Shown here piece after piece: positions 689-46,376 of a stretch of 64,000 nucleotides of DNA. Both the position numbers and the translations under genes were made by a program. This DNA is from Halarchaeum rubridurum. GTDB taxonomy: Archaea > Halobacteriota > Halobacteria > Halobacteriales > Halobacteriaceae. Numbering within the stretch: position 1 is the first letter of the stretch; each line of letters opens with the position of its first letter. The notes beneath the pieces were generated by a model. The model had not been told where the DNA came from. It saw only the letters and a list, made by a program, of their open reading frames with translations, and ran no database searches. The stretch lies in NCBI RefSeq assembly GCF_014647115.1, contig NZ_BMOO01000002.1, positions 248,001-312,000 of the forward strand, written 5' to 3'.

Positions 689-694
689 GGTGTG

Positions 695-1189: not shown

Positions 1190-2187
1190 TCGAACCCCTC
1201 CGTGAGGAGTCGCCACCAGCGCGAACGCGACCCGCGGAGGCGTTCGCGACCGTCGACGAGGGCCGCGAGCGCGACGGCGGGCGAGAACGCGAGCGCCGCG
1301 GAGACGGCGGCCGCGAGCAGGGGTTCGGCGGCGTCGAGGCGCGCGAGCACCGAGTGCGGGAGCACGGCGGGGTAGCGCCGGACCGCGACCTCGACCGGTA
1401 TCGCCCCGGGTTCGGCGGGGGCGCGGACCCGCCCGGCGACCGTCAGCGTGGTGGCGTTCCGCGAGACGGCGACGTCGTGCAGTCCCGCGGTGTGGACGAC
1501 GCGGTCGGTCCACGGCCGCGACGGGACGGCGACGGTGTAGTTCAGCGCGTGCGTCGACCCCGTGGCGACGGTGGGAAGCGTACCGGTGCCGGTCGGGTCG
1601 TGGACGGCGACGATGGTCTCCGCGTGCGTCACGCCGCCGAGCGCGACGATGCCGGCCGTCCCCACCACGGCGGCGATGAGGAGCGGGAGGAGGACCGAGC
1701 GGGCGCTCGCGGGTCGGGTGGGACGCCCGGCCGAGCGGCCGCGACCGAGGAGCGCGGCGAGCCCGACGAGGCCGACGAGGAGCGCGACGTTGTCGTGGAC
1801 GAAGCGGACGGCGCGCCCGAGGTGCGGGACGACGACCGGCTCGTCGTTCCACGTCAGCACGCGCCCGACGACGGCGTCGCGCGGGACCGGCGGGTAGCCG
1901 GCGGCCTGGTCGGCGACGGGGTTGTTGTCGCCCTTCGTGCGGAAGCCGTCCGCGGTCTCGGCGACGACGCGGTGGGTCGTGTAGGCCCCGCGCGTCTCGC
2001 TCCAGAACGTCACGATATCTCCCGTCTCGACGTCGCCCGCGGGGACGAGGACGTAGCCGTCGCCGACGCCGATGGTCGGGTGCATGCTGTCCGAGTAGAC
2101 GTAGGACACCTGCACGGGCGAACCGGCCGGCGCGGCGACGAGCGCGGCGACGACGAGGAGCGCGGCGAGGGCGGCGGTACGGAGCAC
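1186..2187 (-). CDS. Signal peptidase I, S26B (SipW/SEC11-like)
   Basis: 333 aa membrane serine protease that removes signal peptides. After an N-terminal membrane segment (residues 2-20) comes YSDSMHPT with the nucleophile Ser34. THRV supplies His72, the S26B replacement for the bacterial lysine, and TKGDNN (Asp87) is the conserved third box. Two further membrane segments (about 133-185) and a C-terminal one (about 288-308) enclose an extra extracytoplasmic domain, so it is longer than a minimal archaeal peptidase of about 200 aa. It sits between two SipW-signal proteins and upstream of a DUF5305 gene. A dedicated peptidase for these substrates is more likely than the general secretory one. 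Confidence 0.85.
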   Translation of the reverse strand: MLRTAALAALLVVAALVAAPAGSPVQVSYVYSDSMHPTIGVGDGYVLVPAGDVETGDIVTFWSETRGAYTTHRVVAETADGFRTKGDNNPVADQAAGYPPVPRDAVVGRVLTWNDEPVVVPHLGRAVRFVHDNVALLVGLVGLAALLGRGRSAGRPTRPASARSVLLPLLIAAVVGTAGIVALGGVTHAETIVAVHDPTGTGTLPTVATGSTHALNYTVAVPSRPWTDRVVHTAGLHDVAVSRNATTLTVAGRVRAPAEPGAIPVEVAVRRYPAVLPHSVLARLDAAEPLLAAAVSAALAFSPAVALAALVDGRERLRGSRSRWWRLLTEGFE

Positions 2188-2211
2188 GAAGAACGGTGAG
2201 AGCGTGAGCGT

Positions 2212-2739
2212 TTAGGCCGTGACGTTCAGCGTCCCGGTGAGGTCGGCGCCGCTCGTCTGCCCGCCGGAGTCGACGGTGACGACGACGTCGAGCGCCTCGT
2301 TCGCGCCGAGCTCGCCCTCGTAGCCGGTGTCCTCGTTCACGGTAGTGACGGTTTGACTACTGCTGTTGATGAGCTCGAACTTGACGTTCTCCGTGGTCGG
2401 GTCGGGGTCGTTCGCCATGTCGTACGTGATGTTGAACGTGTGGGCGTTCGGGAAGTTGTTCGTGATGGTGAACGCCGGCGACGACGTGTTGCCGATGGTG
2501 AGCGTCGAGTTCGGGTTGACGCCGTTGGCAGTGCCGGCCGTGACGTCGATGGCGAGCTGGTCGTTGCTCGTCGTGACGAGCCCGGAGTCGCCGGCGCTCA
2601 GGCCGACGAGACCGCCGCTGTCCGTGGCGACGTTGAGGCTGGCGTCACGCTCGACGGTCGCGGTGGTGAACGCGCTCGCCCCGAAGGCGGAGGCGACGAC
2701 GACGATTCCGAGTGCGATGGCGGCGAGTTTGAGTCGCAT
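2212..2739 (-). CDS. SipW-type signal-peptide surface protein, putative filament subunit
   Basis: 175 aa from the ATG at 2739; a GTG at 2787 would add 16 residues, but the shorter form gives a normal short basic n-region (MRLKLAAIAL). The hydrophobic core ends in GASAFTTATVERDASLNVA, followed by GGLVGL, matching the paralogue encoded at 695-1189. The mature domain carries many N-x-S/T sequons and paired beta strands (FTITNNFPNAHTFNITYDM), ending LTGTLNVTA, as in TasA/camelysin-like subunits. It is first in the run, 24 bp upstream of the peptidase gene, which probably processes it. Function as a fibre or surface-layer accessory subunit is inferred. Confidence 0.75.
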   Translation of the reverse strand: MRLKLAAIALGIVVVASAFGASAFTTATVERDASLNVATDSGGLVGLSAGDSGLVTTSNDQLAIDVTAGTANGVNPNSTLTIGNTSSPAFTITNNFPNAHTFNITYDMANDPDPTTENVKFELINSSSQTVTTVNEDTGYEGELGANEALDVVVTVDSGGQTSGADLTGTLNVTA

Positions 2740-2958
2740 ACGCCCGAACGGAGTGCCCGCCGCCGAGAAAGACCGTCGTCTATTCACTTACCGGGCCCCC
2801 GCGCGGAACCTACTATGCGAGGTTCGCGGTGGTGCGGACGGGCGGGCGGCGGCGACGGCGGCGGTCGGACGCGCCGACGAGCGCGGCTGTTCGACGCCGT
2901 CGCGGCGGTGACCACGATAGGCCCCACGCTTTACTACGCGCGCACGAGACGGAAGAAC

Positions 2959-4068
2959 ATGAACGAGAAGCGACTCGTGGTCGCCTGTTTCGGCGTCCTC
3001 GTCGCCGCCGCCCTGGCCTTCCTCGCGTACCGGTTCATCGCGCCGCTGACCGTTTCGGTCTTCCTCTACTACTCGACGCGGCGCTACCACAAGTCGCTGA
3101 GACGCCTCCACCTCCCCTCGCGCGCCCGCGCGGCGATAGTCCTCGCGTCGTTGGCCGTCCCGCTCGTCCTCCTGATCGGCTACGCGGTCGTCCTCCTCGT
3201 CGTCGACGCGCGCTCGTTCATCACGCAGTACGCCCTCCTCGACGTCGCCGCGGCCCGCCTCCCGTGGTTCGAGGGAATCGACACCCTCCCGCCGCTCACC
3301 ATCGACGGCCTCTACACCGCCTATCAGTCCGGCCAGCTCAGCCCCTTCATCACGTTCGCGACCGACCACGCGGCCTTCCTCACGAGCCTCCTCTCCGAGC
3401 TGTTCCTCGACCTGTTCGTCATCATCATCGTCACCTACTACCTGCTCGTCGACGGCGGCCGCCTCCGCGAGTGGCTGCTGCGCTTCGACGACGACGCCAT
3501 CGTCCGGGACTACCTGGAGGCGACGGACGTCGAACTCGAGGCCGTCCTCTTCGGGAACCTCCTGAACGTCATCGCGGTGGCGCTCATCGCCATCGCGTCG
3601 TTCAGCGCGTACAACTTCGTCGCGCCCGAGGCGGTTCAGGTGCCGTATCCGGCGCTCGCGGGCGCGCTCACCGGTCTCGCGAGCCTCGTCCCCGTCGTCG
3701 GCATGAAGCTCGTCTACCTCCCGCTCGCGGCGATTACCGCGATTCCGGTCGCGCTCACGGGCCGGACGGGACTGCTCGTCTACGTCGTCGGCTTCCTCGT
3801 CGTCGCCGTCGTCGTCGTGGACACGATTCCCGACATCGTGCTTCGCCCGCTTCTCAGCGGCGAGAACACCCACGTCGGGCTCCTGATGCTCGCGTACACG
3901 CTCGGCCCGGTCGTCCTCGGCTTCTACGGGCTCTTCCTCGCGCCGATACTGCTCGTCGTCGGCCTGACGTTCGCCGACACCGCCCTCCCGCGACTCCTCG
4001 GTGCCGACCCGGTCGAGGGCGACGACGACACGCTCCCCGCCGCGCAGCGCCGCCTCGACGACTTCTGA
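2959..4068 (+). CDS. AI-2E family transporter (UPF0118 permease)
   Basis: 369 aa polytopic membrane protein. The ATG at 2959 (MNEKRLVVACFG) is chosen because the open frame upstream has no membrane or acidic haloarchaeal character. It shows the family layout: two or three N-terminal helices, an amphipathic stretch (about 100-145), a helix with LFLDLFVIIIVTYYLLVDGG, then a C-terminal cluster of helices with the conserved GALTGLASLVPVVG and PDIVLRPLL motifs. Members export autoinducer-2 or act as Na+/H+ antiporters; the substrate here cannot be told. It appears monocistronic and is followed by an intergenic 13-bp-period repeat. Confidence 0.85.
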   Translation: MNEKRLVVACFGVLVAAALAFLAYRFIAPLTVSVFLYYSTRRYHKSLRRLHLPSRARAAIVLASLAVPLVLLIGYAVVLLVVDARSFITQYALLDVAAARLPWFEGIDTLPPLTIDGLYTAYQSGQLSPFITFATDHAAFLTSLLSELFLDLFVIIIVTYYLLVDGGRLREWLLRFDDDAIVRDYLEATDVELEAVLFGNLLNVIAVALIAIASFSAYNFVAPEAVQVPYPALAGALTGLASLVPVVGMKLVYLPLAAITAIPVALTGRTGLLVYVVGFLVVAVVVVDTIPDIVLRPLLSGENTHVGLLMLAYTLGPVVLGFYGLFLAPILLVVGLTFADTALPRLLGADPVEGDDDTLPAAQRRLDDF

Positions 4069-4121
4069 GGCGGGCGGCGGCGCGGATACCGGACCCCGGA
4101 GCCACCGTTCGGTTTTCCAGT

Positions 4122-4147
4122 CAGTATGACGGAGCAGTAATACTGTA
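4122..4147 (+). repeat. 13-bp-period CAGTAATACTG element, site A
   Basis: Two adjacent 13-bp units, CAGTATGACGGAG and CAGTAATACTGTA. The second contains the dyad CAGTA-A-TACTG. The 15-mer GAGCAGTAATACTGT here recurs exactly at 46224. It lies 48 bp upstream of the next start codon. Confidence 0.6.
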
Positions 4148-4194
4148 TTCGACGACCCGCGGAGTTAACACCGTGGCGCGCGAGTGACCCGGTG

Positions 4195-4770
4195 ATGACT
4201 GTGGACCCGTCCGTTCGCGCCGGGCGCGTGACCGACCGCGCGCTCCGGCTCGGCCTCCTCGCGGTCGCCGTCGCCGGTCTCCGCCGGCGCGACCCGGGGG
4301 CGGTCGTCAACGCCCTCGTCGGACTCGCGGCGACGTTCCTCCCGGACGTGCTCGAACGGGGGGCGGCGGTCCGCTTTCGCCCCCGACACCGGGTCTGGGT
4401 GTCGGCGTCCGCCCTCCTCCACGCGGTCGGGATGCTCGGCCCGTACGACGAGACGTGGTGGTGGGACCACCTCACGCACCTCTGCTCGGCCTCGCTCGTC
4501 GGGACGGCGGCGCACCTGTTCGCGCGACGGCGCGGCCACGACACGACCCGAACCGTGCTCGCGGCCACGCTCGGCCTCGGCGTGCTCTGGGAGGGAATCG
4601 AGTACGCCGTCCACCGGACCGCCCGGCGCTTCGACCTGGAACCGCTCCTCGTCACGTACGGGCCGCGGGACACCGCTCTCGACCTCGTCTTCGACGCGCT
4701 CGGCGCGCTCTGTGTCGTCGCGTTCGGCGACCGGCTCCTCGGCGACGTGCGCGAGACGGACGGGGACTGA
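4195..4770 (+). CDS. Small polytopic membrane protein, YjdF/DUF2238-like
   Basis: 191 aa from the ATG at 4195; a GTG directly before it is an alternative. About five hydrophobic segments are visible. The stretch WWWDHLTHLCSASLV, followed by LGVLWEGIEY and DTALDLVFDALGA, resembles the paired W-D-x-x-x-H and E-x-x-E/D motifs of the YjdF/DUF2238 integral membrane family. No enzymatic role is established for that family. It stands alone: the upstream gene ends 126 bp earlier and the downstream gene is convergent. Family assignment is tentative. Confidence 0.65.
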   Translation: MTVDPSVRAGRVTDRALRLGLLAVAVAGLRRRDPGAVVNALVGLAATFLPDVLERGAAVRFRPRHRVWVSASALLHAVGMLGPYDETWWWDHLTHLCSASLVGTAAHLFARRRGHDTTRTVLAATLGLGVLWEGIEYAVHRTARRFDLEPLLVTYGPRDTALDLVFDALGALCVVAFGDRLLGDVRETDGD

Positions 4771-4800
4771 GGCGACGCGGACGGCCACGGGCGCGCGCCG

Positions 4801-7329
4801 TCACCCCGTCGCGGGCGAGTCCGTCGAGGTATCCGCCGCGGCGTCCTCCCTCCCGGGTCGGGCGTCGCGGCCGTCGACGTACCGCGCCCAGACGACGATG
4901 ACCGGCGGGAGCACGACCAGCGACGCGAGGTAGGAGTAGAGTATCGAGAGTCCGGTGAGGAGGCCGAACTGGCCGAGGACGGGCGTGATGGCGATGGCGA
5001 GGACGCCGATGCCGGTGACAGTCGTGAGCATGCTCCCGGTGAGCGCGCCGCCGGTCCCGCGCACGGTCCGCGTGAGGGCGTCGAAGACGTCCGCGGACTC
5101 GTCGTACTCCTCCGCGAAGCGATGGACGAGGTGGGCGGAGTAGTCGATTCCGAGGCCGATTCCGATGGAGAGGATGGTTCCCGTCAGGACGTTGAACGGG
5201 ATGTCGAGGTAGCGCATCGTCGCCGCGATGCCGACGACGGTCACCGCGATGGGGACGAGGTTGACGACCCCGAGCGACGGCCGCCCTTCGAGGAGCCCGT
5301 AGATGAGGACGAGGAACGCGGCCGTCCCGAGGAGCGCGAAGAGGAGGCTGACGAACGCCGATTCGGCGATGACGTCCGAGACGGCCTTCAGCACGACGAC
5401 GCTGCCGGTCGCGGTCGCCTCGAAGCGGAAGCGGTCGGCGACGGTCTGCGTGTCGCTCGTGACGGCGGCCTGCGAGGCGTCGGCCTCGACCGCGTACTGG
5501 ACGCGCGCCGCCGTGTAGTCGTCGGTGATGTAGTCGAGCGCGCGCTCGCGGGCGGGCGAGTCGAGGAGTGCGTCGTAGACCGTCGTCAGGTCGTCGTCGG
5601 GGATGCCGTTCGCGTTCCGGTCGTTGCGCGCGACGAGGCGCGCGAACTCGGCGTCCCGTCGCGCGTAGGCGCGGATGACGGTGACGATGCTCGTCTCGCG
5701 CGCGTGGCCGTCGTCGACGACGAAGCTGTCCGGGGGGCTCGCGCCGGCCTTCCACATCGACTCCAACGCGCCGTCGTTCGTCAGCGACCCCTCGACGTAG
5801 ACCGTCGTGACGTCCTCCTCCCCCGTCTGGAAGCGCTCTTCGAGGTAGTTCGTCGTCTCCGTCACCGTGTAGTCGCGGGGCTGGAGGGCCTCCGGGAAGT
5901 ACTCCAGGTAGTCGGGGTTGTCCTCGGGCGGGAGGAAGGAGTCCTGGGTGAAGCGGCTGTCGACGCCGGAGCCGTACGCGCCGAGCCACGCGGTGCTGAC
6001 GAGCAGGAGGGCGAGGAAGAGCTTCGGGGCGACCCGGGCGATTCGGACGCCGAGGGGGAGGAGCGCGCCGAGAACCGACTCCTCGGAGCCGAGCGGTTGC
6101 GAGCCGAAACGCGGGACGCCGACGCGCTCGCGGAGGTCGTCGGCGGCCACCTTCGCCGCCGGGAGGAAGACGCCGAAGATGCAGAAGGTGAAGACGATGC
6201 CGACGGCGGCGACGAGCCCGAAGTCGCGGATCGGGCCGAGTTGGCTGCTCGCGTTCGCGGCGAAGCCGATGACGGTCGTCCCGGTGACGATGACGAACGC
6301 GAGGAGCAGCTGGTCGGTCGCCGTCCGCATCGAGTCGCGCACGCCGAACCCCTGCACGCGTTCCTCGCGGTAGCGGTTGATGGCGTGGATGCCGAAGTCG
6401 ATTCCGACGGCGAGGAGGAGCGGCGGGACGGCTATCAGCATCTGCGAGAACGCGATGCCGGCGTGACCCATGAAGCCGAACGTCCAGAGTATCGCCATGG
6501 CGAGCGAGACGATGCCGAGCCCGAGGTCGATGGGGTCGCGGTACGCGATGACGAGGAAGAAGAGGATGAGCACGACGGCGGCGGGGACGACGAGCGCGAG
6601 CGAGTCGCCGATCACCGCGGCGAACTCCTCGGAGAGGATGCCGCTCCCGAACACCGTGATGTCGCCGCCGACGGAGTCGACGACGAAGACGGCGTGCTGT
6701 TGGATTGCTGTGAGAGGACTGGAGCCGCTCGTCCCTGCGCCGTCGCCGGTCTCGGCGGAGAGGGAGTGGGTGACGAGCCCGATGGTCGCCGACGCGGACG
6801 CGGAGCGGGCGTTGAAGTCCGTGCTGAGACTCGCCGCGAACGCCGGGCTCTCCGCGGCCGCGGTGGCGACGGCGGCGTCTATCTCGCCGGGCGTCGCGCG
6901 CTCGACGGCGTCGATCTGCGCGTCGAGCGTCGTCGCGGAGGGGTCGAGCGTCCGCGCGACGGTGCGCGCGACGCTCGTCGTGCCTGCGACCTGCAGATCG
7001 GGATTCGACCGCAGGCGCTCTTGGGCGCGGAGCATCCGCAGGAGTGCGGGCTTCGAGAGGACGTTCGCCCCCGACTGAATCAGCTGCGTCGTCCCCGTGT
7101 CGGGTTCGAACGTCACGCGCTCGAAGTTGTCGTTGACGTCGGAGAGGGCCTCCTGTGCGGGGACGTCCTCGGTGAACTGGCTGGTGCCCGAGGAGGTGCC
7201 GGAGCCGCCGAGGCCGAGGGCGAAGACGCCCGAGACGAGCAGGAAGGCGACGATGACGGTCCGCGGCCGGTCGACGATCCAGTGATCGACGGCGTCGATG
7301 TAGCGTTGAGCGTCTATCTGGACGTCCAT
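4801..7329 (-). CDS. MMPL/RND-superfamily export permease
   Basis: 842 aa. One N-terminal helix (about 22-42), a large extracellular loop, five helices (about 230-400), a second large loop (about 430-640) and five more helices (about 650-815) give the duplicated RND/MMPL fold. Each half has the hallmark sequence before an arginine-rich turn: GIDFGIHAINRYREE near residue 306 and GIGLGIDYSAHLVHRF near residue 725. The aspartates probably serve proton relay. It starts 3 nt after the stop of the secreted COG1361 gene, so the two form an operon, and the exoprotein is probably a partner or substrate-capture subunit. The cargo is unknown. Confidence 0.88.
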   Translation of the reverse strand: MDVQIDAQRYIDAVDHWIVDRPRTVIVAFLLVSGVFALGLGGSGTSSGTSQFTEDVPAQEALSDVNDNFERVTFEPDTGTTQLIQSGANVLSKPALLRMLRAQERLRSNPDLQVAGTTSVARTVARTLDPSATTLDAQIDAVERATPGEIDAAVATAAAESPAFAASLSTDFNARSASASATIGLVTHSLSAETGDGAGTSGSSPLTAIQQHAVFVVDSVGGDITVFGSGILSEEFAAVIGDSLALVVPAAVVLILFFLVIAYRDPIDLGLGIVSLAMAILWTFGFMGHAGIAFSQMLIAVPPLLLAVGIDFGIHAINRYREERVQGFGVRDSMRTATDQLLLAFVIVTGTTVIGFAANASSQLGPIRDFGLVAAVGIVFTFCIFGVFLPAAKVAADDLRERVGVPRFGSQPLGSEESVLGALLPLGVRIARVAPKLFLALLLVSTAWLGAYGSGVDSRFTQDSFLPPEDNPDYLEYFPEALQPRDYTVTETTNYLEERFQTGEEDVTTVYVEGSLTNDGALESMWKAGASPPDSFVVDDGHARETSIVTVIRAYARRDAEFARLVARNDRNANGIPDDDLTTVYDALLDSPARERALDYITDDYTAARVQYAVEADASQAAVTSDTQTVADRFRFEATATGSVVVLKAVSDVIAESAFVSLLFALLGTAAFLVLIYGLLEGRPSLGVVNLVPIAVTVVGIAATMRYLDIPFNVLTGTILSIGIGLGIDYSAHLVHRFAEEYDESADVFDALTRTVRGTGGALTGSMLTTVTGIGVLAIAITPVLGQFGLLTGLSILYSYLASLVVLPPVIVVWARYVDGRDARPGREDAAADTSTDSPATG

Positions 7330-7332
7330 CGG

Positions 7333-8973
7333 TCACTCCCGCCGGCGCCGCCAGAGGACGAACCCGACGACGGCGACGACGAGCACGGCGCCGCCGACGA
7401 GGGTGAGCGGGGGTCCGCCGCCCGAGGACTGCGCGACGGTGACGGGGACGGTGTACGTCCGTGAGACCTCGGTGTCGCCGTCGGGGAGTTCGTACTGGAA
7501 GTCGACGGAGACGGGGTAGCGCTTTTCGAGCGCGCTCCCGCCGGCGCTCAGGGCGATGGTGAACTCGTCGGTCTCGCCGGGCGCGAGCGACGGGACGATG
7601 CCCTCGTCGTCGTCGCTCCCGAGCGGGTCCTGCACGAACGCCTTCGCCTCGACGTTCCGCAGCGGTTCGTCGCCGTTGTTCGTCACGCGGACGGTGAGCG
7701 CGCGCGACCCGCCGGCGCGGACCGTGTCGTTGGCGACCGCCACGACGAACCGGTCCCGCTGGGGGGCGACCTCCGCGTTCGTCGTCAGCCCGTCGCTGCG
7801 TTCGACGTCGCCGCGCTGGTTCCGATACTCGACGGTGAGGGTGAACTGCTGGACGCTCGCGCTCGCGGCGTCGCTGACGGCGACGGTGTACGAGACCGGT
7901 GCGCGCTCGCCCGGCGCGAGGTCCCCGAGTGCGTATTCGGCGGAGTCGACGTGGACGTTCGGGTCGTTCGACGAGAACCGGACGACGGGGTCGCGGACGG
8001 GGTCGGGGCCGGTGTTGACGACGGTGGCGCGCAGGGTGCCGTCCTCGCCGACGCGCAGCGACGTCGAGACGTCGTCGAGGGCGAAGGCCTGTTCGGCGCG
8101 CGGGTCGACGCCGACGTTCAGCGTCTGTGAGGTGCGCGCGATTCCGTTGTGGTCGGTGTAGTCGACCGCGAGGTCGACGGTGTACTCGCGGAGCGCGGCG
8201 TCGTCCGCGAGCCCGACGACGTATTCGACGGTCCGCCGCTCGCCGGGCTCCCACGCGCCGAGCTGGGCGGTCGAGCTCGCCGAGCCGGAGCCGAAGGTGA
8301 GTTCGTCGCTCCGGGAGGTGGCCGTCGCGCTCGCCTCGCTCGCGGCGCGGGTGCCGACGTTCTCGACCGTCACGGAGAGCGACCCGGTCGAGCCGACCTG
8401 CGCGCTCGTCGAGCGGTTCACGACCGCGAAGCGCGCCTGGTCCCGAACGCGGACCGTGACGTACTGCGTCTCCTCGCGCTCGAAGTCGCGGTACTCGGCA
8501 CCGTACGCGTCGTAGCTCACGCTGCGCGTGTACGCGTAGGAGAGCGTTATCGGGACGCGATACGTGCCGGGGTCAGCGTCGTCCGAGACGGTGATGCCGA
8601 TGGGGTCGACGGGTGACGTCCCGGTCGGGACGTTCCCGACGCCGACGGTGCCGGTGTTCACCTCGATGGGTGCCGAGCCGGCCCGGGCGTCGACGGTGAG
8701 CCCGCGGGCCGTCGTCACGCGCTGTTCGTACTGTGAGGGGCCGCCCTGCTCGACGTCGCCGCGGTTCGAGACGCCGAGGCGGAGGGTGGCTTCGGTGCCG
8801 GGTTCGAACTCCTTCGTGTTCGTGAAGACGTCGAGTTCGGGGTTCCCGATGACCTGCCCGGAGTTCCCCGCCTGCTGCGCGCCGACGGGCGCGACGCCGG
8901 CGACGCTCGACCCGAGGAGGAGGCAGGCGAGGAACGCGCCGAGGAGGGCCGTTCGGAGGGGTCGCCCGAACAT
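7333..8973 (-). CDS. COG1361-type exoprotein with CARDB/NEW3-like repeats
   Basis: 546 aa. A Sec signal peptide covers residues 1-33 (hydrophobic LLGAFLACLLLGSSVAGV, then APVGAQQ). The body consists of about four to five beta-sandwich repeats with recurring motifs of the type V-x-N-x-G and L-A-P-G-E (for example VENVGTRAAS, GERAPVSYTV, RVTNNGDEPL), as in CARDB/NEW3 domains. A C-terminal transmembrane helix (about 519-541) ends in RRRRE, an outward-facing anchor. It is the first gene of a two-gene operon with the RND permease. COG1361 proteins with RND partners are common in archaea; their cargo is generally unknown. Confidence 0.82.
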   Translation of the reverse strand: MFGRPLRTALLGAFLACLLLGSSVAGVAPVGAQQAGNSGQVIGNPELDVFTNTKEFEPGTEATLRLGVSNRGDVEQGGPSQYEQRVTTARGLTVDARAGSAPIEVNTGTVGVGNVPTGTSPVDPIGITVSDDADPGTYRVPITLSYAYTRSVSYDAYGAEYRDFEREETQYVTVRVRDQARFAVVNRSTSAQVGSTGSLSVTVENVGTRAASEASATATSRSDELTFGSGSASSTAQLGAWEPGERRTVEYVVGLADDAALREYTVDLAVDYTDHNGIARTSQTLNVGVDPRAEQAFALDDVSTSLRVGEDGTLRATVVNTGPDPVRDPVVRFSSNDPNVHVDSAEYALGDLAPGERAPVSYTVAVSDAASASVQQFTLTVEYRNQRGDVERSDGLTTNAEVAPQRDRFVVAVANDTVRAGGSRALTVRVTNNGDEPLRNVEAKAFVQDPLGSDDDEGIVPSLAPGETDEFTIALSAGGSALEKRYPVSVDFQYELPDGDTEVSRTYTVPVTVAQSSGGGPPLTLVGGAVLVVAVVGFVLWRRRRE

Positions 8974-9249
8974 TCAGGCCACCGCGGGCGGACGGTCGGC
9001 GTCGTCCAGAATCGTCGCTACCGAGGGCTGGGCGTTCATGAGATACGTACACAGGTGACGAGAAGTCGTATGTACTTTGTGGTGAGAGGGCGACGGGCGT
9101 CGCGCGGCATCGCGGGGGCGAGCAGCGGGAGTGGGGTCGGTAGATGTATATCGTCACATGAAGTGTATCGACTCGTTCTGGTAATACTGGGCAGTACGAC
9201 CGGAGAAGTTGGCGAAAAATACTTGCCCCGCGGTGGTGAGGGAAGGAGC
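8974..9249. other. Divergent intergenic region
   Basis: It separates the minus-strand exoprotein gene from the plus-strand ParA gene. It holds the 13-bp-period element at 9179-9204 and an A/T-rich TATA-like box (AAAATACTT, about 9214-9222) about 28 nt upstream of the ParA start, which suggests an almost leaderless transcript. No open frame here looks coding. Confidence 0.55.
9179..9204 (+). repeat. 13-bp-period CAGTAATACTG element, site B
   Basis: Two 13-bp units, TGGTAATACTGGG and CAGTACGACCGGA, with the same spacing as the other sites but more diverged. It ends 45 bp upstream of the ParA-like start codon, just upstream of its probable TATA box. Confidence 0.5.
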
Positions 9250-10134
9250 ATGGCGACGATTGCATACACGATATGGAGCGAGGCGGGTGGGGTGGGAAAG
9301 ACCACCTTCACCGTCACGCTCGCGGCCGCGCACGCCCGGCACGGCCAGCGCGTGCTCGTCGTGGACCTCGACCCGCAGGACGGCGGGGCGACCCACCACT
9401 TCGGCGCGACGGAGGAGCGCGCGAACCCGGAGGCGGACAACCTCGTTCGCCACATGATCGGGCGACCAAAGGGCGACTTCGACGACCTCGTGACGTCAGT
9501 CGCGGACGGCATCGACCTCGTGCCGAGCCACAACATGCTGGAGTCCCTGGAGCGAAACCTCCTGCGCGCACAGCGCATGGAGGAGGACATGGGCGAGGAG
9601 TTCGTCCCCGAGCGCCAACTCCGTCGCGTCCTGGAGGAGAACGACGTGCCCGCGGCGTACGACGTCGTCCTCATCGACCCGCCGGCGACGGGCGGCCAGC
9701 ACGTCTACAACGCGGTGTACGCGGCGTCGAACCTCCTGATTCCGCTGGAGCTCTCCGCGAAGGGCCGGGAGTCCGTGGAGGGGATGCGCGATACCGTCGA
9801 GGGCATCGAGGCGGCGCTCGACGACGTGGAAGTCGGAGTGCTCGCCGTCGTCCCGAACCGCGTCTCGAACACGAAGAAGCAGGCGGAGTACGAGGCCGAC
9901 CTCGAAGCCCAGGAGTTCCCGGTCGCGCCCGTGGAGATACGGGAGCGCCGTGCGATGCTGGAGGGCGCGTGGGACGAGCAGGTGACGCCGTACGCGTTCG
10001 CCACGGGCCGTGAGCGGGTCCGCGAACGCGAACTGGAGACGCTCGCACAGTTCGACGAGCTCGCGCGGTACGTCTCCGCGCAGTTCGACGTGGACATCGA
10101 CGCGGACGACATCCCCGAGGAGGAGCGACTATGA
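9250..10134 (+). CDS. ParA/MinD-family ATPase with atypical Walker A
   Basis: 294 aa. The deviant P-loop is WSEAGGVGKTTFT (residues 8-20); VVDLDPQDGGATHHFG and VLIDPPATGG supply the Walker A' and B segments. The signature lysine that precedes GG in ParA/MinD proteins is alanine here (EAGGVGKT), an oddity because that residue reaches across the dimer. The family forms ATP-dependent dimers that position plasmids, chromosomes or protein clusters. The ATG at 9250 is chosen because the longer frame lacks a sensible N-terminus. The 3' end overlaps the next gene by ATGA. The neighbours (RdfA, SMC-like) favour a role in cell shape or chromosome organisation over plasmid partition. Confidence 0.85.
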   Translation: MATIAYTIWSEAGGVGKTTFTVTLAAAHARHGQRVLVVDLDPQDGGATHHFGATEERANPEADNLVRHMIGRPKGDFDDLVTSVADGIDLVPSHNMLESLERNLLRAQRMEEDMGEEFVPERQLRRVLEENDVPAAYDVVLIDPPATGGQHVYNAVYAASNLLIPLELSAKGRESVEGMRDTVEGIEAALDDVEVGVLAVVPNRVSNTKKQAEYEADLEAQEFPVAPVEIRERRAMLEGAWDEQVTPYAFATGRERVRERELETLAQFDELARYVSAQFDVDIDADDIPEEERL

Positions 10135-10610
10135 AACCCGGAGCCAGCGACCCGTTCGCCGACGACGAGGAGGACGAGAGAGTACCCGTGGACGAAGACG
10201 AAGCGGCCGACGAACCGACGGACGAGCCGTCCGCGGGGGCCGCGGAGGCGTCCGGCGCGGACGGCGTAGACGATGCGGACGGCACGGGGGACGCGGGGAC
10301 GACCGACGCCGCCGCGAGCGACGAATCGGCCGCCGGCGAGAGCGGAGACGCGGCCGGCGGGGCGGACGAGCCGGTCGAGTTCCCGTACATCTACCGCCGG
10401 GACAAGGTGAAAGACGAGCGTCCGGACGTTCATCAGTTGTTCGTGCGCGACGAGACGGATACGCTGGCGCGCGACGCGGAGCGCGACCTCGAAAAGCTCC
10501 TCGGCGAGGACGTCTATCGGCTCGACGCGCGCGAGGCTATCTACCTCGCGGGGATGCGCCACCTCGACGAGGCCGCGGACGTCCTCCGGGAGTGGGGGTA
10601 CGACCGATAA
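10131..10610 (+). CDS. Acidic partner protein of the ParA-like ATPase
   Basis: 159 aa, start coupled to the ParA stop (ATGA). Residues 1-85 are low-complexity D/E/A/G sequence. Residues 86-159 form the ordered part, opening EFPYIYRRDKVKDERP, then VHQLFVRDETD and helices ending LAGMRHLDEAADVLREWGYD. There is no recognisable DNA-binding motif. By position it is the ParA cognate partner (adaptor or cargo factor), as usual for a small gene coupled to parA, but it is not recognisably ParB. Function is inferred from context only. Confidence 0.72.
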   Translation: MKPGASDPFADDEEDERVPVDEDEAADEPTDEPSAGAAEASGADGVDDADGTGDAGTTDAAASDESAAGESGDAAGGADEPVEFPYIYRRDKVKDERPDVHQLFVRDETDTLARDAERDLEKLLGEDVYRLDAREAIYLAGMRHLDEAADVLREWGYDR

Positions 10611-10715
10611 ACCGGCAATTGGCGCCGGTAGACGCCCTCCGAACACTTACACGTATAGGTTTGTAAATCGTCGGCCGATACTACTATGTGGGGGCTCGGC
10701 TTACGCGGGGTATAG

Positions 10716-11333
10716 ATGAGTTCGGACGAAGGGGCCTGTGACTGTAAGGTCGGGCGCGTCGCGGACGCGTACGGGCTCGACGACGTCGACGGCGAGCTCG
10801 CGTCGCTGTGGCGCGGCGAGGGCGGGGAGTCGTACAGCCTCCGGGACCTCAAGGAGTACTTCAACCGGCGCGTGCTGGAGGCGGCGCTGCGCGCGGCGAA
10901 CGTCGAGGTGCTCGACGGCGAGTTGGAGAACACGTATCGGCTCCTGACGGACGACGACGTGAGCGCGGGGATGCGGACGCAGGCAATCGGCCGCCTCGAA
11001 CGCGACGGCGTGGACGTCGAGGGGGTACAGCGGGACTTCGTCTCACACCAGTCGATACACACGCACCTCCGTGAGTGTCTCGACGTCGAGAAGAACCCGG
11101 AGCCGGCGGACCGCGTCGCCTCGACGCGGAACACGGTCGGGTCGCTGGAGACGCGCACGGAGAAGATCGCCGCGAACAACCTCGAACGGCTCGCGGGCGA
11201 GGAGGTGGCGCTCGACGGCTTCGACGTCATCGTGACGACGCACGTGACCTGCGACGAGTGCGGGCGACGCCACGAGTTCGGTGACCTCCTCGAAGCCGGC
11301 GGATGCGACTGTCGGCTCGACTCGGCCGAGTGA
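10716..11333 (+). CDS. rdfA: Rod-determining factor RdfA
   Basis: 205 aa. The N-terminus (CDCKVGRVADAYGL, then YSLRDLKEYFNRRVLEAALR) is characteristic of the haloarchaeal RdfA family, needed for rod shape in Haloferax volcanii. A helical middle follows. The C-terminus has paired cysteines (CDECGRR, then GGCDC), a probable zinc site together with the N-terminal CDC. A TATA-like stretch around 10675-10687 precedes it. It lies between the ParA pair and an SMC-like gene, an association known for rdfA in other haloarchaea. Family identity is recalled from conserved motifs; molecular activity is unknown. Confidence 0.82.
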   Translation: MSSDEGACDCKVGRVADAYGLDDVDGELASLWRGEGGESYSLRDLKEYFNRRVLEAALRAANVEVLDGELENTYRLLTDDDVSAGMRTQAIGRLERDGVDVEGVQRDFVSHQSIHTHLRECLDVEKNPEPADRVASTRNTVGSLETRTEKIAANNLERLAGEEVALDGFDVIVTTHVTCDECGRRHEFGDLLEAGGCDCRLDSAE

Positions 11334-11342
11334 GTCTGCAGT

Positions 11343-11350
11343 ACCTATAA
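11343..11350 (+). promoter_or_regulatory. TATA-type promoter of SMC-like gene
   Basis: CCTATAAG lies 27-33 nt before the ATG at 11377, so the SMC-like gene probably has its own leaderless transcript although it follows rdfA by only 43 bp. Confidence 0.55.
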
Positions 11351-11376
11351 GTCGGCGGGTGGCGTAGCGCGGCTAT

Positions 11377-13341
11377 ATGCAGACGAGCCGAGAGGCGGGC
11401 ACGGGTGTCGACGTGCGCGTGTCCAACATCGGCGGTATCGAAGAGACCGCGGTCCACCTCACACCCGGCGTGAACGTCCTCGTCGGGCGGAACGCGACGA
11501 ACCGGACCTCGTTCCTCCAGTCGCTGATGGCGGTCGCGGGTAGCGAGCGCGCCACCCTCAAGGGCGACAGCGAGGAGGGACGCGTCGAGGCCGAACTCGA
11601 CGGGGAGACGTTCACGCGCGTGCTGACGCGACGCGGCGACGGCGTCGACTTCTCGGGCGACCCCATCCTCGAGGACGCGGAGGTCGCGGACCTGTTCGCG
11701 TTCCTGCTGGAGGACAACGAGGCGCGACGCGCGGTGGCGACGCAGGGCGACCTGCGCGAGCTCGTGATGCGGCCGGTCGACACCGAGGCGATCAACGACC
11801 GGATCGACGAGTTGCTCGCGGAGCGCAAACGGATCGACGACGAGATCGAGGAGGCGGAGGCCGCGGGCCGGCGTATCCCCGACCTGGAGGAGCGCCGCGT
11901 CGAGTTGCTCGACGAGATCGAGGCGAAGCGCGAGGCCCTGGAGGAGAAGCAGGCGGAGATCGACGACGCGGACGCGGACGTCGACGAGTCCCGCGAGGAG
12001 CGCGACGAGCTGGAGGACGCGCTCGACGACCTCAACGACCGGCGGGCTGAGCTGGACCGGATCGCCTCCCGACTGGAGAACGAGCGCTCCAGCCTCTCGT
12101 CGGTGCGCTCGGAGCGCGAGGACGTCGCGGGGACGCTCGAAGAGCTGGAGGGCGTCGCGGGGGACCGCGCGGAGTACCTCGACGAACAGGTGTCGTCGCT
12201 CCGGGACCGGAAGCGCGAGCTCGACTCGACGATCACGCAGCTCCAGAGCCTCATCCAGTTCAACGAGGAGATGCTGGAGGGCGAACACACCGAGGTGCTC
12301 CAGCTGCTCGCGGACGACGAGGGCGGGGAGGACTCGAACGCGGTGACGGACGCCCTCCTCGCCGGCGCGGAGAGTGCCGCGGGGCGCTGTTGGACCTGCG
12401 GCTCCGAGGTGTCGATGGAGGAGATCGAGGAGACGCTGGACACGCTGCGCGAGCTCGCCCGCGAGAAGCGCCAAGAGCGCTCGTCGGTGACGAGCGAGCT
12501 CGAGGAGGTCCAGTCGGAGCGCAACGAGATCGAGTCGCGCGTCGAGCGCCGCGAGGACCTCGAAACCCGCCTCGACGAACTCGGTGAGGAGATCGAGACG
12601 CGTGAGGGGAACGTCGAGCGACTCACCGAGGAGCGCGAGGAGGCCGCGGAGGCCGTCGAGGAACTGGAGGAGACGGTCGAGGAACTCGAAGCGGGCCGAC
12701 ACAGCGCCGTGCTCGACCTCCACCGGGAGGCGAACGAACTCCAGTTCGAACTGAACGACCTCCAGGACGACCTGGAGGACGTCGAGTCCGAGATCGCGTC
12801 GCTCGAAGCGGAGGTCGACCGGAAGTCGGAGCTGACGGAGAAACGCGAGTCGCTCACGGACGAACTCGCGGAGCTGCGGACGCGGATCGAGCGTCTGGAG
12901 GCGGAGGCCGTCGAGTCGTTCAACGACCACATGGAGACGGTGCTCGACGTGCTCGACTACGGGAACGTCTCGCGGGTCTGGATCGAGCGCGCCACCGAGC
13001 AGGTGCGGGAGGGCCGCCGGAAGGTCGAGCGGACGGCGTTCAGACTCCACGTGATCCGGACGGGTGCGGACGGGACGGCGTACGAGGACACGGTCGAGCA
13101 CCTCTCGGAGTCCGAGCGCGAGGTCATCGGCCTCGTCTTCGGGCTGGCGGGCTACCTCGTCCACGAGGTGTACGAGGAGTGTCCGTTCATGCTCCTCGAC
13201 TCGCTGGAGGCCATCGACTCGAATCGGATTGCGGCGCTCGTCGACCACTTCCACGAGTACGCGCCGTACATCGCCGTCGCGCTCCTCCCGGAGGACGCGC
13301 AGGCGCTCGACGACGACTACCGGCGCGTGACCGACATCTGA
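11377..13341 (+). CDS. Archaea-specific SMC-related ATPase (Sph-like)
   Basis: 654 aa Rad50/SMC-like protein. The N-terminal ATPase lobe has a degenerate P-loop GRNATNRTS (residues 38-46), where the usual GK pair is NR. A long coiled coil runs from about 140 to 335, and CWTCG (Cys338, Cys341) at the apex is a Rad50-type zinc hook. The returning coil spans about 350-520. The C-terminal lobe has the signature LSESEREV and Walker B CPFMLLDSLEAID (near 603). The cysteine hook and short arms separate it from true SMC. In haloarchaea this family occurs beside rdfA. A role in nucleoid or cell-shape organisation is inferred. Confidence 0.82.
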   Translation: MQTSREAGTGVDVRVSNIGGIEETAVHLTPGVNVLVGRNATNRTSFLQSLMAVAGSERATLKGDSEEGRVEAELDGETFTRVLTRRGDGVDFSGDPILEDAEVADLFAFLLEDNEARRAVATQGDLRELVMRPVDTEAINDRIDELLAERKRIDDEIEEAEAAGRRIPDLEERRVELLDEIEAKREALEEKQAEIDDADADVDESREERDELEDALDDLNDRRAELDRIASRLENERSSLSSVRSEREDVAGTLEELEGVAGDRAEYLDEQVSSLRDRKRELDSTITQLQSLIQFNEEMLEGEHTEVLQLLADDEGGEDSNAVTDALLAGAESAAGRCWTCGSEVSMEEIEETLDTLRELAREKRQERSSVTSELEEVQSERNEIESRVERREDLETRLDELGEEIETREGNVERLTEEREEAAEAVEELEETVEELEAGRHSAVLDLHREANELQFELNDLQDDLEDVESEIASLEAEVDRKSELTEKRESLTDELAELRTRIERLEAEAVESFNDHMETVLDVLDYGNVSRVWIERATEQVREGRRKVERTAFRLHVIRTGADGTAYEDTVEHLSESEREVIGLVFGLAGYLVHEVYEECPFMLLDSLEAIDSNRIAALVDHFHEYAPYIAVALLPEDAQALDDDYRRVTDI

Positions 13342-13729
13342 GGCGAGGACAGGGTCGGGCCCCGAGTCGCCCGTTTTGACGGGGTAGTGACTTGGTGAAT
13401 TGTTCTTAAACAGAAATTTTGTCCAATAATACTGCTCAGTAATACTGCCTGTAAATTCTGCTCAGGTCATTTGATTGGACAGTATGAGTGAAGGGTATGG
13501 TCAGAGTGGTTGATTGCGTTTAGTGAGTGGCCGTCGTGGTCGGTATGTGCGCCCGGTCCGGGCGGGCGGTCCCGATGGTGTCGCCGGCCGGGCAGGGGCA
13601 GCCGGCAGTGGGCCACCGCGGGTCCGCGGCGTCGAACAGGGGTGGACGAGGCGGTGGTCGCATCGCACGCGCCACGAGCCAGCGGGGTTCATCACGAACG
13701 TTTTCGTGAGGCGGGGTCGAAGGAGGCGT
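13342..13729. other. 388-bp intergenic region without a gene
   Basis: It holds the longest 13-bp-period repeat array (13411-13475), flanked by an inverted repeat GTCCAAT (13421) / ATTGGAC (13474). The remainder is GC-rich without a convincing coding frame. It probably carries the promoter of the winged-helix gene at 13730 and the 3' end of the SMC-like transcript. Confidence 0.5.
13411..13475 (+). repeat. 13-bp-period CAGTAATACTG array, site C (five units)
   Basis: Units at exact 13-bp steps: CAGAAATTTTGTC / CAATAATACTGCT / CAGTAATACTGCC / TGTAAATTCTGCT / CAGGTCATTTGAT. The 19-mer spanning units two and three (13423-13441) recurs exactly at 46252-46270. The array is about 255 bp upstream of the regulator gene. 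Confidence 0.7.
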
Positions 13730-14457: not shown

Positions 14458-15675
14458 ATGAGCGAAGACCCAGTCATCGTCGCGGGCGCGGGGCCGACCG
14501 GGATGGTCACGGCGCTCGGCCTGCAGGCGCGCGGTACCCCCGTCGAGTTGTACGAGGCCGACCCCGAGGACCGCGACCGCCCGGGAAGTCGTGCCATCTT
14601 CGTCCACGGCGCGACGCTGCGGACGCTGGACACCCTCCACCCGGGTCTCGGCTCCGACCTCGCCGAGCGGGGGATGGTGTGGCCGACCCGGCGAACGCTG
14701 TTCCGCGGGGAGGAGGTGTTCTCGCGGACGTACGACGACCCGCTCGACGCCGGCGAGGGGCTCCCGCCGTTCAGCAGCCTCCCGCAGGTGTGGACGGAGG
14801 ACATCCTGCTCGACACGCTCGACGACGTCGGCATCGACATCCACTGGAACACGCCGGTCGAGACCGTCGAGACGCGCCCGGACGGCGTGACGGTCGGCAC
14901 GGGCGACGGCGAGACGCGCGAAGCGTCGTACGTCGTCGGCGCGGACGGTGCGGGTTCGACCGTCCGCACGGAGATCGGCGCGGACTTCGCGGGCGACCAA
15001 TCGGAGAACTACTTCATCATCGCGGACATCGAGGAGGTCCCGGACGACCCGCGCCCGACCGAGCGCGTCTTCCACTACGACACGCCCGAGCTCGGCGGTC
15101 GCAACCTCCTCATCGTCCCGTTCCAGGGCGGGTGGCGCGTCGACATCCAGTGTAAGCCCGACGACGACCCCGACCACATCACGAGCGACGCGGTCATCTC
15201 CGAGTACACGGCGCGCGCGCTCGGCGAGCGCTACCGCGACCGCGTCGAGTGGGTGTCCGCCTACCAGTTCAAGCAGGTGAACGCGGACACGTACACGGAC
15301 GAGCACGAGCGCGTGCTGCTCGCGGGCGAGGCCGCCCACCTCTTCGCGCCGTTCGGCGCGCGCGGGATGAACTCGGGGATCGCGGACGCGGACGCGGTCG
15401 CGTCGGCCATCGCGGGCGCGCTCGCCGCCGACGTCGACGCGGTCGCGCGCGCGGAGGTCAGGAAGTGCGCGGAGCGCCGCCAGCGCGCCGGCGAGTGGAA
15501 CAAGGACGCGGCCGCCCAGGCACTCGAATACCTGCAGGGGGAGAGCCCCGTGACGAAGGCGAAAAAGCGCCTCGCGGCGGCGGCGGCGGACTACTACGAA
15601 CCCGCGGGCGAGTGGCTCGACGACGCCCCATACGGCCCGCACGGGAGCCCGCCGGTCTCCATCGGCCAGTACTGA
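14458..15675 (+). CDS. FAD-dependent aromatic monooxygenase
   Basis: 405 aa flavoprotein hydroxylase of the p-hydroxybenzoate/phenol hydroxylase superfamily. The Rossmann GxGxxG is VIVAGAGPTGMV (residues 6-17), the DG motif is VVGADGAGSTVR (about 158-169), and the third FAD motif is LAGEAAHLFAPFGARGMNSG (about 288-307; GE replaces the usual GD). Such enzymes add a hydroxyl ortho to an existing one, preparing the ring for cleavage. The substrate cannot be named; relatives act on salicylate, hydroxyphenylpropionate and hydroxybenzoates. It follows a winged-helix regulator and precedes a hydroxyacid dehydrogenase and a PaaK-like ligase. Confidence 0.83.
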   Translation: MSEDPVIVAGAGPTGMVTALGLQARGTPVELYEADPEDRDRPGSRAIFVHGATLRTLDTLHPGLGSDLAERGMVWPTRRTLFRGEEVFSRTYDDPLDAGEGLPPFSSLPQVWTEDILLDTLDDVGIDIHWNTPVETVETRPDGVTVGTGDGETREASYVVGADGAGSTVRTEIGADFAGDQSENYFIIADIEEVPDDPRPTERVFHYDTPELGGRNLLIVPFQGGWRVDIQCKPDDDPDHITSDAVISEYTARALGERYRDRVEWVSAYQFKQVNADTYTDEHERVLLAGEAAHLFAPFGARGMNSGIADADAVASAIAGALAADVDAVARAEVRKCAERRQRAGEWNKDAAAQALEYLQGESPVTKAKKRLAAAAADYYEPAGEWLDDAPYGPHGSPPVSIGQY

Positions 15676-15762
15676 ACAGCGAGGCGGGCGGCCCGCCGCG
15701 CCGGCTCCCGTCTCCCGACGGTGCACTTTGATAACGCTAGCGACCACTCTCACGATAACGAC

Positions 15763-18700
15763 ATGACGACGCGACAGACGGACGCGACGCCGCCGGACCC
15801 GGCGACGGCATCGGACGCGAACTACGACTACGCGGGCGAGGACGTCGAGCGGCCCGACCTGTTGGACGCGCTCGACCGACTCGCCGACGGCGAGGTACGC
15901 TTCGACTCGTACTCGCGCGAGCTGTACGCGACGGACGCGAGCGCGTACGAGGTGACGCCCATCGGCGTCGTCTTCCCGCGGAACACGGCGGACGTCGCGG
16001 CGGTGGTGGAGTACTGCGCGACGGAGGACGTCCCGGTGCTCCCGCGGGGCGGCGGGACGAGCCTCGCGGGCCAGACCGTGAACGAGGCGGTCGTCCTCGA
16101 CTTCACGCGGCACATGGACGGCGCGGCGGACGCCGACCCCGAGGCCCGGACGGTGCGCGTCCAGCCCGGCATCACGCTCGCGCGACTGAACGAGGGGCTC
16201 TCCGTCTACGACCTGAAGTTCGCGCCCGACCCCGCGGCGGGCGACCGGAGCGTCATCGGCGGCGCAATCGGGAACAACTCGACGGGGTCGCACTCGCTGA
16301 AGTACGGCAAGACGGACGCGTACGTCGAGGAGGTCGAGGCCGTCCTCGCGGACGGGAGCGTGACGCGTTTCGCCGAGGTGTCCGTCGGCGAGCTCCGCGA
16401 GAGCGCGGACGCCGAGGGCGACATCGAGTCGCGAATCCACGCGACGGTGCTCGACGTCCTCGAAGACGAGCGCGACGAGATCGACGCGCGCTACCCCGAG
16501 CTGAAGCGCAACGTCTCGGGTTACAACTTCGACATGCTCGTCGCGGAGGCGTACGGGGAGCGGGACGGCGCGACGGCGGAGGGCGTGGACGCGGAGACGG
16601 ACGCTGAAGCGGACGCGGAGACGGACGCCGACGGCGCGACGCTCCCCGACGACGCGACCGTCAACCTCGCGCGCCTGCTCGCGGGGAGCGAGGGGACGCT
16701 CGCGGTCATCACGGAGGCGACCGTCTCGCTCGAACCCGTCCCGGAGACGAAAGCGGTCGCGCTCCTCACGTACGACGAGCTGACGGCGGCGGTCGAGGAC
16801 GTCACCGAGGTGCTCGAACACGACCCGGCGGCCGTGGAGTTCATCGACGACACGCTGATCGACCTCGCGGGCGACACCTCGGAGTTCCGCGACGTCGTCG
16901 AGATGCTCCCGGAGGGGACGCGCGCGGCGCTCCTCGTGGAGTTCTACGCGGAGAGCGACGACGACGGCCGCGGGAAGGTGGACGCGCTCGTCGCCGACCG
17001 CGTCGGGACGTCGGCGATGGACGCCATCGAGGCCCACGGCGAGGAGGAGCGCGGGCGCGTCTGGAAACTCCGGAAGGCCGGCAACCCGATCCTGCTCTCG
17101 CGGACGACGGACGAGAAGCACCTCTCCTTCATCGAGGATTGCGCGGTGCCGGCGGAGGTGCTCCCGGAGTACGTGCAGGGCTTTCGGGACATCCTCGCGG
17201 ACCACGACACCTTCGGGGCGTTCTACGGCCACGCGGGCCCGGGCGTTCTGCACATCCGGCCGCTCGTCACGACGAAGACGGAGGAGGGGCTCGCGGCCTA
17301 CGAGAGCATCGCGGACGAGGTGACGGACCTCGTCGTCGAACTCGGCGGGTCGGTCTCCGGCGAGCACGGCGACGGCCGCGCGCGCACCCAGTGGAACGAG
17401 AAGCTCTACGGGCGCGAGCTCTGGGAGACGTTCCGCGAGCTGAAGACGGCGTACGACCCGAACTGGCTCCTCAATCCCGGGCAGGTCTGCGGTTACGACC
17501 CGGACGAGACCCTGCCCGAGGGCGTGCCGGAGCGCGCGCGGCGCGTCTCGATGACCGAGGACCTCCGCTACGACCCCGACTACGAGTTCGAGGCCGGCTT
17601 CGAGCCCGAGCTCGCGTGGGAGAACGACAACGGCTTCGAGGGGATGGTCGAGCTCTGTCACGGCTGTGGCGGCTGTCGCACCGACCAGGACACGGGCGGG
17701 GGCGTGATGTGCCCGACGTACCGCGCGAGCGACGAGGAGATACAGGCGACGCGCGGGCGCGCGAACCTCCTGCGTCAGGCGATGAGCGGCGACCTCCCCG
17801 ACGAGCAGTTCGACGTCGAGTTCATGCACGAGGTGATGGACCTCTGTATCGGCTGTAAGGGCTGTTCGAACGACTGCCCGAGCGAGGTCGACATGGCGAA
17901 GATGAAGGCCGAGGTCACCCACGAGTACCACCAGCGAGAGGGCGCGAGCCTCCGCGATAGGGTCTTCGCGAACGTCGATGCGCTCTCGAAGCTCGGCTCG
18001 GCGTTCGCGCCGCTCTCGAACCTCGCGGCGAAGCTCCCGGGGTCGCGCGCGCTCCTCGAACGGACGCTCGGAATCACCGCGGAGCGCACGCTGCCGTCCT
18101 TCCGCGCGCAGACGCTCCACGACTGGTTCGAGGCGCGCGGGGGCTCGCGCGTCCCCGAGGACGAGGCCGAGCGTCGCGTCGTCTTCTTCGTCGACACCTA
18201 CACGAACTACAGCCACCCCGAGGTGGGGAAGGCGACCGTCGAGGTGCTGGAGGCGGCGGGCGTCCACGTCGACCTCGCGGAGCGGACGGACAGCGGCCGG
18301 CCCGCCCACTCGAAGGGCTTCCTCGACAAGTCGCGCGCGACGGCGTCGGAGAACGTCGCGGAACTCCACCCGCGGGTCGAGGACGGCTGGGACGTCGTGC
18401 TCGTCGAGCCCTCGGACGCCGTGATGGTCCAACACGACTACCTGGACCTGCTCTCGGGCGAGCGCGTCGAGGCCGTCGCGGAGAACACCTACGACGTGAT
18501 GGAGTACCTCGACACCCACCGGCTCGTCGCGGAGCTCGACACGCGCGACCCCGCGGAGACGCTGACCTACCACGGCCACTGCCACCAGAAGGCCGTGAAG
18601 AAGGACCACCACGCGGTCGGCGCGCTCCGGCGCGCGGGCTACGAGGTGGACCCGCTCGACTCGGGCTGTTGCGGGATGGCGGGCTCGTTCGGCTACGAGG

Positions 18701-46027: not shown

Positions 46028-46376
46028 CAGGCGACCACCCCGTGTGCCCCGCGTGTCCCGCGATACCGCCGTCGCGGGCGGGCGTAGACGACGGCCGGGC
46101 CGGACCGACCGAGGGCGGTGTCCGTGCGGGGCGTGGTGTCGACGGCCGTGGACGACGTCGTCACACTCGCCGCTTTCCGCGCGGGCTATGTAAGTGTATC
46201 CCACGGCCCGACCATTTCGGAGTGAGCAGTAATACTGTTCAGAAATACTGACCAATAATACTGCTCAGTATGATAGAGGGGTTTCGCTGTCACGCCGACG
46301 CACCGGCCCTCCGGGAGGTATCGACGGTGCATGCCGCGACGGCGGCGTTTAACCGGGTGACGGGCGAAGCGCCGCC
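46028..46376. other. Divergent intergenic region, 349 bp
   Basis: It separates the zinc-finger gene (minus) from the iron-type alcohol dehydrogenase gene (plus). It contains the four-unit 13-bp-period array at 46227-46278. Nothing else coding was seen. GTTTAAC at about 46348-46354 may be the TATA box of the dehydrogenase gene, about 25-30 nt before its ATG. Confidence 0.5.
46227..46278 (+). repeat. 13-bp-period CAGTAATACTG array, site E (four units)
   Basis: Units at exact 13-bp steps: CAGTAATACTGTT / CAGAAATACTGAC / CAATAATACTGCT / CAGTATGATAGAG. It shares a 19-mer with site C and a 15-mer with site A. It ends 98 bp upstream of the dehydrogenase start. Confidence 0.75.

Follow-up and report, generated by a model that had tools for sequence, protein, structure and literature searches.

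The window analysed here, a stretch of 64,000 nucleotides at positions 248001-312000 of the 552-kb contig G000:C2 from a Halarchaeum draft assembly, holds four adjacent genes on the + strand: parA, a small gene following it (its product is called the partner below), rdfA, and a gene for an SMC-like ATPase of the archaea-specific SMC-related protein (ASRP) type. The first two of these (9250-10610) very probably serve a Halarchaeum megaplasmid as its partition cassette, with rdfA and the ASRP gene forming a separate unit. The combination of a ParA, a partner encoded immediately after it and 13-bp repeats that covary with the partner is what a partition system built from ParA, a centromere binder and a centromere looks like, and a plasmid partition cassette is accordingly the most likely assignment. 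It is the ParA pair that is new; the pairing of RdfA with ASRP has already been published.

The parA gene (9250..10134, +) encodes a ParA-type ATPase with matches to Pfam AAA_31 (90 bits) and CbiA (61 bits), a Walker A of the form SEAGGVGKT, and best sequence relatives among Soj/ParA and McdA; in the PDB, Soj structures are matched at 1e-13 and McdA structures weakly. Cyanobacterial McdA is missing the signature lysine of the Walker A. Likewise, 82 of the 83 members of the present ParA family carry SE[AS]GGVGK[TS], in which the signature lysine of KGGxGK[ST] is missing, and by its sequence the ParA of the window would be a divergent one, as in McdA. A preliminary description of this DNA had named a “MinD/ParA-type ATPase”; the ParA half of that label stands, but no MinD model reached its cut-off (minD_arch scored 39.6 bits against a required 201.75), and the C-terminus reads as acidic, with no basic membrane helix.

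The partner gene (10131..10610, +), proposed to encode the centromere-binding protein, overlaps parA by 4 bp. In 64/65 loci examined across the family, a ParA gene immediately precedes the partner gene and is read from the same strand, in most of them with the same 4-bp start/stop overlap. The partner protein combines an N-terminal peptide, MKxGAxDPFAD (the protein in the window starts MKPGASDPFAD), an acidic low-complexity linker, and a conserved C-terminal domain of 76 residues (about 82-158) in which family alignments reveal invariant or near-invariant positions. The “acidic partner” that had been described earlier is borne out. The family is haloarchaeal, present in 71/116 genomes of the class, and finds no match among the families of Pfam, NCBIfam and PHROGs. 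An AlphaFold2 model of the C-terminus (predicted local distance difference test, pLDDT, about 85) places an extended VHQLFV segment before helices at 107-124, 130-140 and 145-154, an order of strand, helix and helix that only suggests a ribbon-helix-helix fold. Searched against the PDB, the family profile gave chance-level matches only and no archaeal segregation protein; SegB was not among the chains returned from that set, in which the presence of a SegB structure is unverified.

The partner is strongly associated with plasmids. Partner genes occur in 103 PLSDB plasmid records, many of them at about position 1.2-1.5 kb, the record starting at parA, and the partner is often the second gene. 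No relative of the partner or of RdfA turned up among viral contigs, a result that does not favour a viral origin. One subfamily stands somewhat apart (L122, L136, L138, L140, L141 and L142), with the partner strand PVYV, ParA proteins 38-40% identical and a location mostly on large contigs.

An indication of function comes from the DNA upstream of parA. When autocorrelation was computed for 63 loci, the strongest lag was 13 or 26 bp in 50 of them; the mean z was 3.8 for lag 13 and -0.75 for lag 14. The repeated unit (the iteron) differs between subfamilies, and so does the partner strand that accompanies it: TACTGNNCAGTA is found with VHQLFV, TGTTCATTA with xPLFL, TCTTAGAT with TVQLHL, GCTATA with xPIFI, and TAACTA with xQYFL. 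Among 30 non-redundant loci, similarity of the iterons correlates with similarity of the partner strand segment (r = 0.55, Mantel p = 0.0002). Over such distances, intergenic DNA free of constraint would hardly be expected to retain this likeness. In Haladaptatus, Halomicrococcus and Halorientalis, most of the tandem sites lie just before parA, so the dispersal of arrays described below looks like a Halarchaeum feature.

Within the window, TACTGNNCAGTA with up to 1 mismatch is matched 5 times against 0.09 expected. The site ahead of parA is a single palindromic iteron, TACTGGGCAGTA (9185..9196, no strand), an exact match to TACTGNNCAGTA and the proposed operator and partition site; the equivalent position bears an iteron in plasmid pCBA1220-01 (see below) and arrays in other genera. 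Between it and the gene stands a putative BRE/TATA-like element, CGAAAAATACTT (9213..9224, +), 26-37 nt before the parA ATG, and relatives, too, have a comparable element this far from parA (GACGAATATTTATG, for example). Further sites were located with a matrix derived from 25 loci in other genera, Halarchaeum being left out, against a background of 240 kb of contig C3. This matrix finds exactly four 13-bp-phased arrays on the 552 kb of C2, at 73.3, 192.8, 261.4 and 294.2 kb; no array was found on C2 at periods of 11, 12, 14, 15 or 16, and none in the 240 kb of C3. The arrays at 261.4 and 294.2 kb fall in the window. The first (13404..13467, no strand) comprises five 13-bp-phased iterons, has a three-unit array score of 40.1 and lies just downstream of the four-gene cluster, and two other Halarchaeum genomes have an array or site at the same place. 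The second (46220..46270, no strand) has four phased units and a three-unit score of 54.9, and its position next to one particular alcohol dehydrogenase gene is conserved in three further replicons of Halarchaeum. For each of the four arrays of C2, at least one congener has an equivalent at the orthologous position.

These sites are confined to the replicon that carries parA. Exact TACTGNNCAGTA occurs four times in the Halarchaeum assembly (G000), each time on C2, and in three congeners 10/11 occurrences are on the contig that bears the cluster. Contig C2 is here treated as a megaplasmid, given its homology to pCBA1220-01 of Halarchaeum sp. CBA1220, which is annotated as a circular plasmid of 603 kb and has a homologous four-gene cluster. 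That plasmid has a single Orc1 gene about 57 kb from parA, counted across the start of the record; of the two Orc1 genes on C2, one (324.9 kb) is 68 kb away from parA and the other lies at 520.9 kb. Close to the sole Orc1 of pCBA1220-01, a gene of the CopG ribbon-helix-helix family was also noted (NZ_CP054708.1 594879-597665).

The same sites could be envisioned as operators of an ordinary transcription regulator of the megaplasmid, with the ParA pair serving another cargo. One array does lie 107 bp before an alcohol dehydrogenase gene in a conserved position, and a gene with helix-turn-helix-like features follows the array at 13404-13467. That array is nevertheless 263 bp from the next ATG (13730), and the arrays at 73.3 and 192.8 kb, two of the four, lie between convergent genes, where an operator role is not expected. 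Since, in addition, the matrix that finds them was learned from arrays upstream of parA in other genera, and the type of motif changes with the C-terminal domain of the partner, the operator explanation is highly improbable. Positioning of some cargo other than DNA, as by McdAB or by MinD2/MinD4 of Haloferax, with iterons that are just autoregulatory, is scarcely probable either: the missing lysine and the weak match to McdA structures are compatible with it, as are the six PVYV pairs, but both the strong association of the partner with plasmid records and the several dispersed arrays restricted to one replicon speak for a DNA cargo.

Several observations do weigh against partition by this pair. 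The plasmid status of C2 rests on homology, and C2 is one contig of a draft assembly. The parA promoter of the window itself has just one clear iteron. In 300 trials with column-permuted matrices, 10 gave at least one array. Similarity in the remainder of the partner C-terminal domain goes with iteron similarity (r = 0.60) no less than that of the presumed strand does, and since a gene and the DNA before it pass down as one piece, part of the covariation of iteron and partner can be put down to shared descent. When the partner model was compared by Foldseek with the PDB and with viral models, nothing came below E = 3. Finally, the six PVYV pairs, mostly on chromosome-sized contigs, are without 13-bp iterons upstream; their cargo may have been lost or changed.

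A different question is whether the ParA pair belongs with its neighbors. The preliminary description had read ParA, partner, rdfA and the SMC-like gene as one locus, linking placement of the nucleoid to cell shape. Direct adjacency of the pair to rdfA and the SMC-like gene is confirmed, and the order parA-partner-rdfA-ASRP is common to five Halarchaeum genomes, so it is not a chance arrangement. In the closest partner subfamily the order recurs in Haladaptatus salinisoli and H. halobius, in each case on a plasmid, and in Natronosalvus hydrolyticus it is rearranged, with ASRP after the partner and rdfA facing it; linkage is missing in most of the other 22 loci of this subfamily. Across haloarchaea, the neighborhood is conserved in Halarchaeum and on the two plasmids from Haladaptatus, and in altered order in Natronosalvus; in most other genomes the pair stands unlinked to rdfA. 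For 112 partner matches outside this genome, positions were compared with those of RdfA (the list of which gives a lower bound), and at least one lies less than 5 kb from an RdfA match among those listed, in G046 and on the opposite strand, which is about the chance level. Conversely, within about 10 kb on each side of 60 RdfA loci, the partner was found in none and any ParA-like gene in 2. Linkage of the pair to rdfA-ASRP is recurrent but uncommon.

Two loci place ParA-like genes near RdfA. At 575-5801, L206 (G074:C2:1-12500) encodes another ParA, whose Walker A is a canonical KGGFGKT, and, overlapping it, an unrelated small acidic protein of 112 residues. Both stand immediately before rdfA-ASRP; an Lrp-like gene and a second RdfA follow ASRP, and AGGTAGCT repeats lie upstream of parA. 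In L224, about 5 kb from rdfA-ASRP, the gene at 15315-16151 encodes a ParA-like protein whose Walker A is degraded (SSERGPHTSG). An assignment of the iterons to RdfA-ASRP was rejected, the 13-bp arrays being found at 0/60 RdfA-ASRP loci.

A single system of ParA, partner, RdfA and ASRP, coupling placement of nucleoid or replicon to cell shape, would account for the conserved order in Halarchaeum and Haladaptatus, for ASRP and then rdfA close by in Natronosalvus, and for the unrelated ParA and small acidic protein before rdfA-ASRP in L206. It also has a phenotype to draw on in Haloferax, where loss of HVO_2174 or sph3 abolishes rods, a requirement for rod formation known for HVO_2174/Sph3 only (PMC10869688). 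Against it stand the counts just given in both directions, the gap between partner and rdfA (106 bp in the window, 257 bp in Haladaptatus) as opposed to the 4-bp overlap of parA and partner, and iterons that track ParA and not RdfA-ASRP. A single system of this kind has very little probability, and a role for the pair alongside RdfA in shape or in placing the nucleoid is not supported. A narrower proposal is also unlikely, if somewhat less so: on some megaplasmids, the partner sitting on dispersed arrays would recruit RdfA and ASRP, so that the centromere would serve to fold the replicon as well as to segregate it. Such recruitment would be compatible with the order of the four genes in Halarchaeum and Haladaptatus, with the unrelated ParA cassette in L206 and with the array directly behind ASRP. 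If true, it would be an archaeal counterpart of the loading of SMC by ParB-parS, built from unrelated parts.

ParA-mediated partition is an established scheme in general, and a plasmid partition cassette at 9250-10610 could operate along the same lines. The C-terminal domain of the partner would bind the 13-bp palindromic iterons (TACTGNNCAGTA in this subfamily), repressing parA from the operator at 9185 and loading on the iteron arrays. The MKxGAxDPFAD peptide, held out on its acidic tether, would contact the ParA without signature lysine and probably stimulate its ATPase, and ParA riding on the nucleoid would then move plasmid copies apart. In Halarchaeum, several arrays distributed along the replicon would together make up the centromere, which in other groups would mostly be a single array before parA. 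The rdfA-ASRP pair would be a separate and widespread two-gene unit, probably acting independently of the cassette, of which a megaplasmid-borne copy is parked here beside the partition genes.

Among the closest known systems is type Ib partition. Delta-omega of pSM19035 and ParF-ParG of TP228 combine a ParA with a small ribbon-helix-helix centromere binder and iterons. Shared features include a small ParA without an N-terminal helix-turn-helix, a small partner directly downstream with a flexible N-terminal tail, and iterons by the operon. The present pair differs in a partner family without detectable match in sequence or fold, in a ParA without the signature lysine, and in an iteron unit that is a 13-bp palindrome, with arrays that are dispersed in Halarchaeum. 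McdA-McdB likewise uses a ParA-family ATPase with a non-canonical Walker A; unlike McdA, which positions carboxysomes, the pair described here comes with iterons and on plasmids. Bacterial ParB-parS with SMC loading resembles it in having several centromere sites on one replicon, and here an SMC-family gene lies beside the par genes, but no homologue of the ParB-CTPase is present and loading of ASRP at iterons is unsupported. SegAB of Sulfolobales and AspA-ParB-ParA of pNOB8 are also ParA-based DNA segregation systems of archaea; they differ in that SegAB is chromosomal and the pNOB8 system has three proteins and a 23-bp palindrome (PMC5120986).

In the open-access literature searched, no description was found of the partner family, of its iterons, or of any haloarchaeal centromere or centromere-binding protein. 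How replicons are shared out in polyploid, multi-replicon haloarchaea is poorly understood, and the cassette offers a candidate binder family, predicted DNA sites for each subfamily, and a megaplasmid on which four centromere sites are predicted. It is also a clean case in which to ask if a centromere and the SMC-like ASRP proteins act together.

The downstream genes are well-supported members of their families. The rdfA family gene (Rod-determining factor A, PF21811; 10716..11333, +) scores 230 bits against a gathering score of 27, and by alignment and model has a helical N-terminal domain followed by a C-terminal CxxC...CxC; fold comparison returned nothing below E = 0.25, and the RdfA profile gave chance-level matches only in the PDB. 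The gene after it (11377..13341, +), of the ASRP/Sph family, scores 656 bits with NF045487 (cut-off 300), and the “hooked SMC-like ATPase” reported earlier is corroborated by SMC-like heads and a CWTC zinc hook, CxxC being present in 55/56 ASRP relatives. Its Walker A, GRNATNRTS, has arginine for the usual lysine; this form occurs in 46/56 relatives, and GKNATNRTS in 4/56.

ASRP stands beside RdfA in 48/60 RdfA loci here, and in 24 haloarchaeal genomes adjacency with SMC-like (Sph) genes was published for 42/54 RdfA genes (78%) and 42/50 SMC-like genes (84%) (PMC10869688). The pair in the window resembles the adjacent RdfA-family and SMC-like genes HVO_2174/HVO_2175 (RdfA-Sph3) of Haloferax volcanii, a likeness at family level to HVO_2174 or any of three paralogues, but differs in lying on a megaplasmid, beside a ParA cassette and without ddfA (PMC10869688). 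Deletion of sph2 gives predominantly rods, the opposite phenotype; sph2 and sph4 cannot be deleted together; all four Haloferax Sph paralogues affect intermolecular gene conversion; and three of the four genes have A or B locus numbers, placing them off the main chromosome (PMC11276520). Given such differences among paralogues, and three of them off the main chromosome, an RdfA beside an ASRP does not by itself mean shape.

Elsewhere in the window, neither Rfam RNAs nor tRNAs were found. Upstream of parA, on the - strand at 4801-8973, a gene for an MMPL/Patched-type transporter adjoins one for a surface protein with CARDB repeats.

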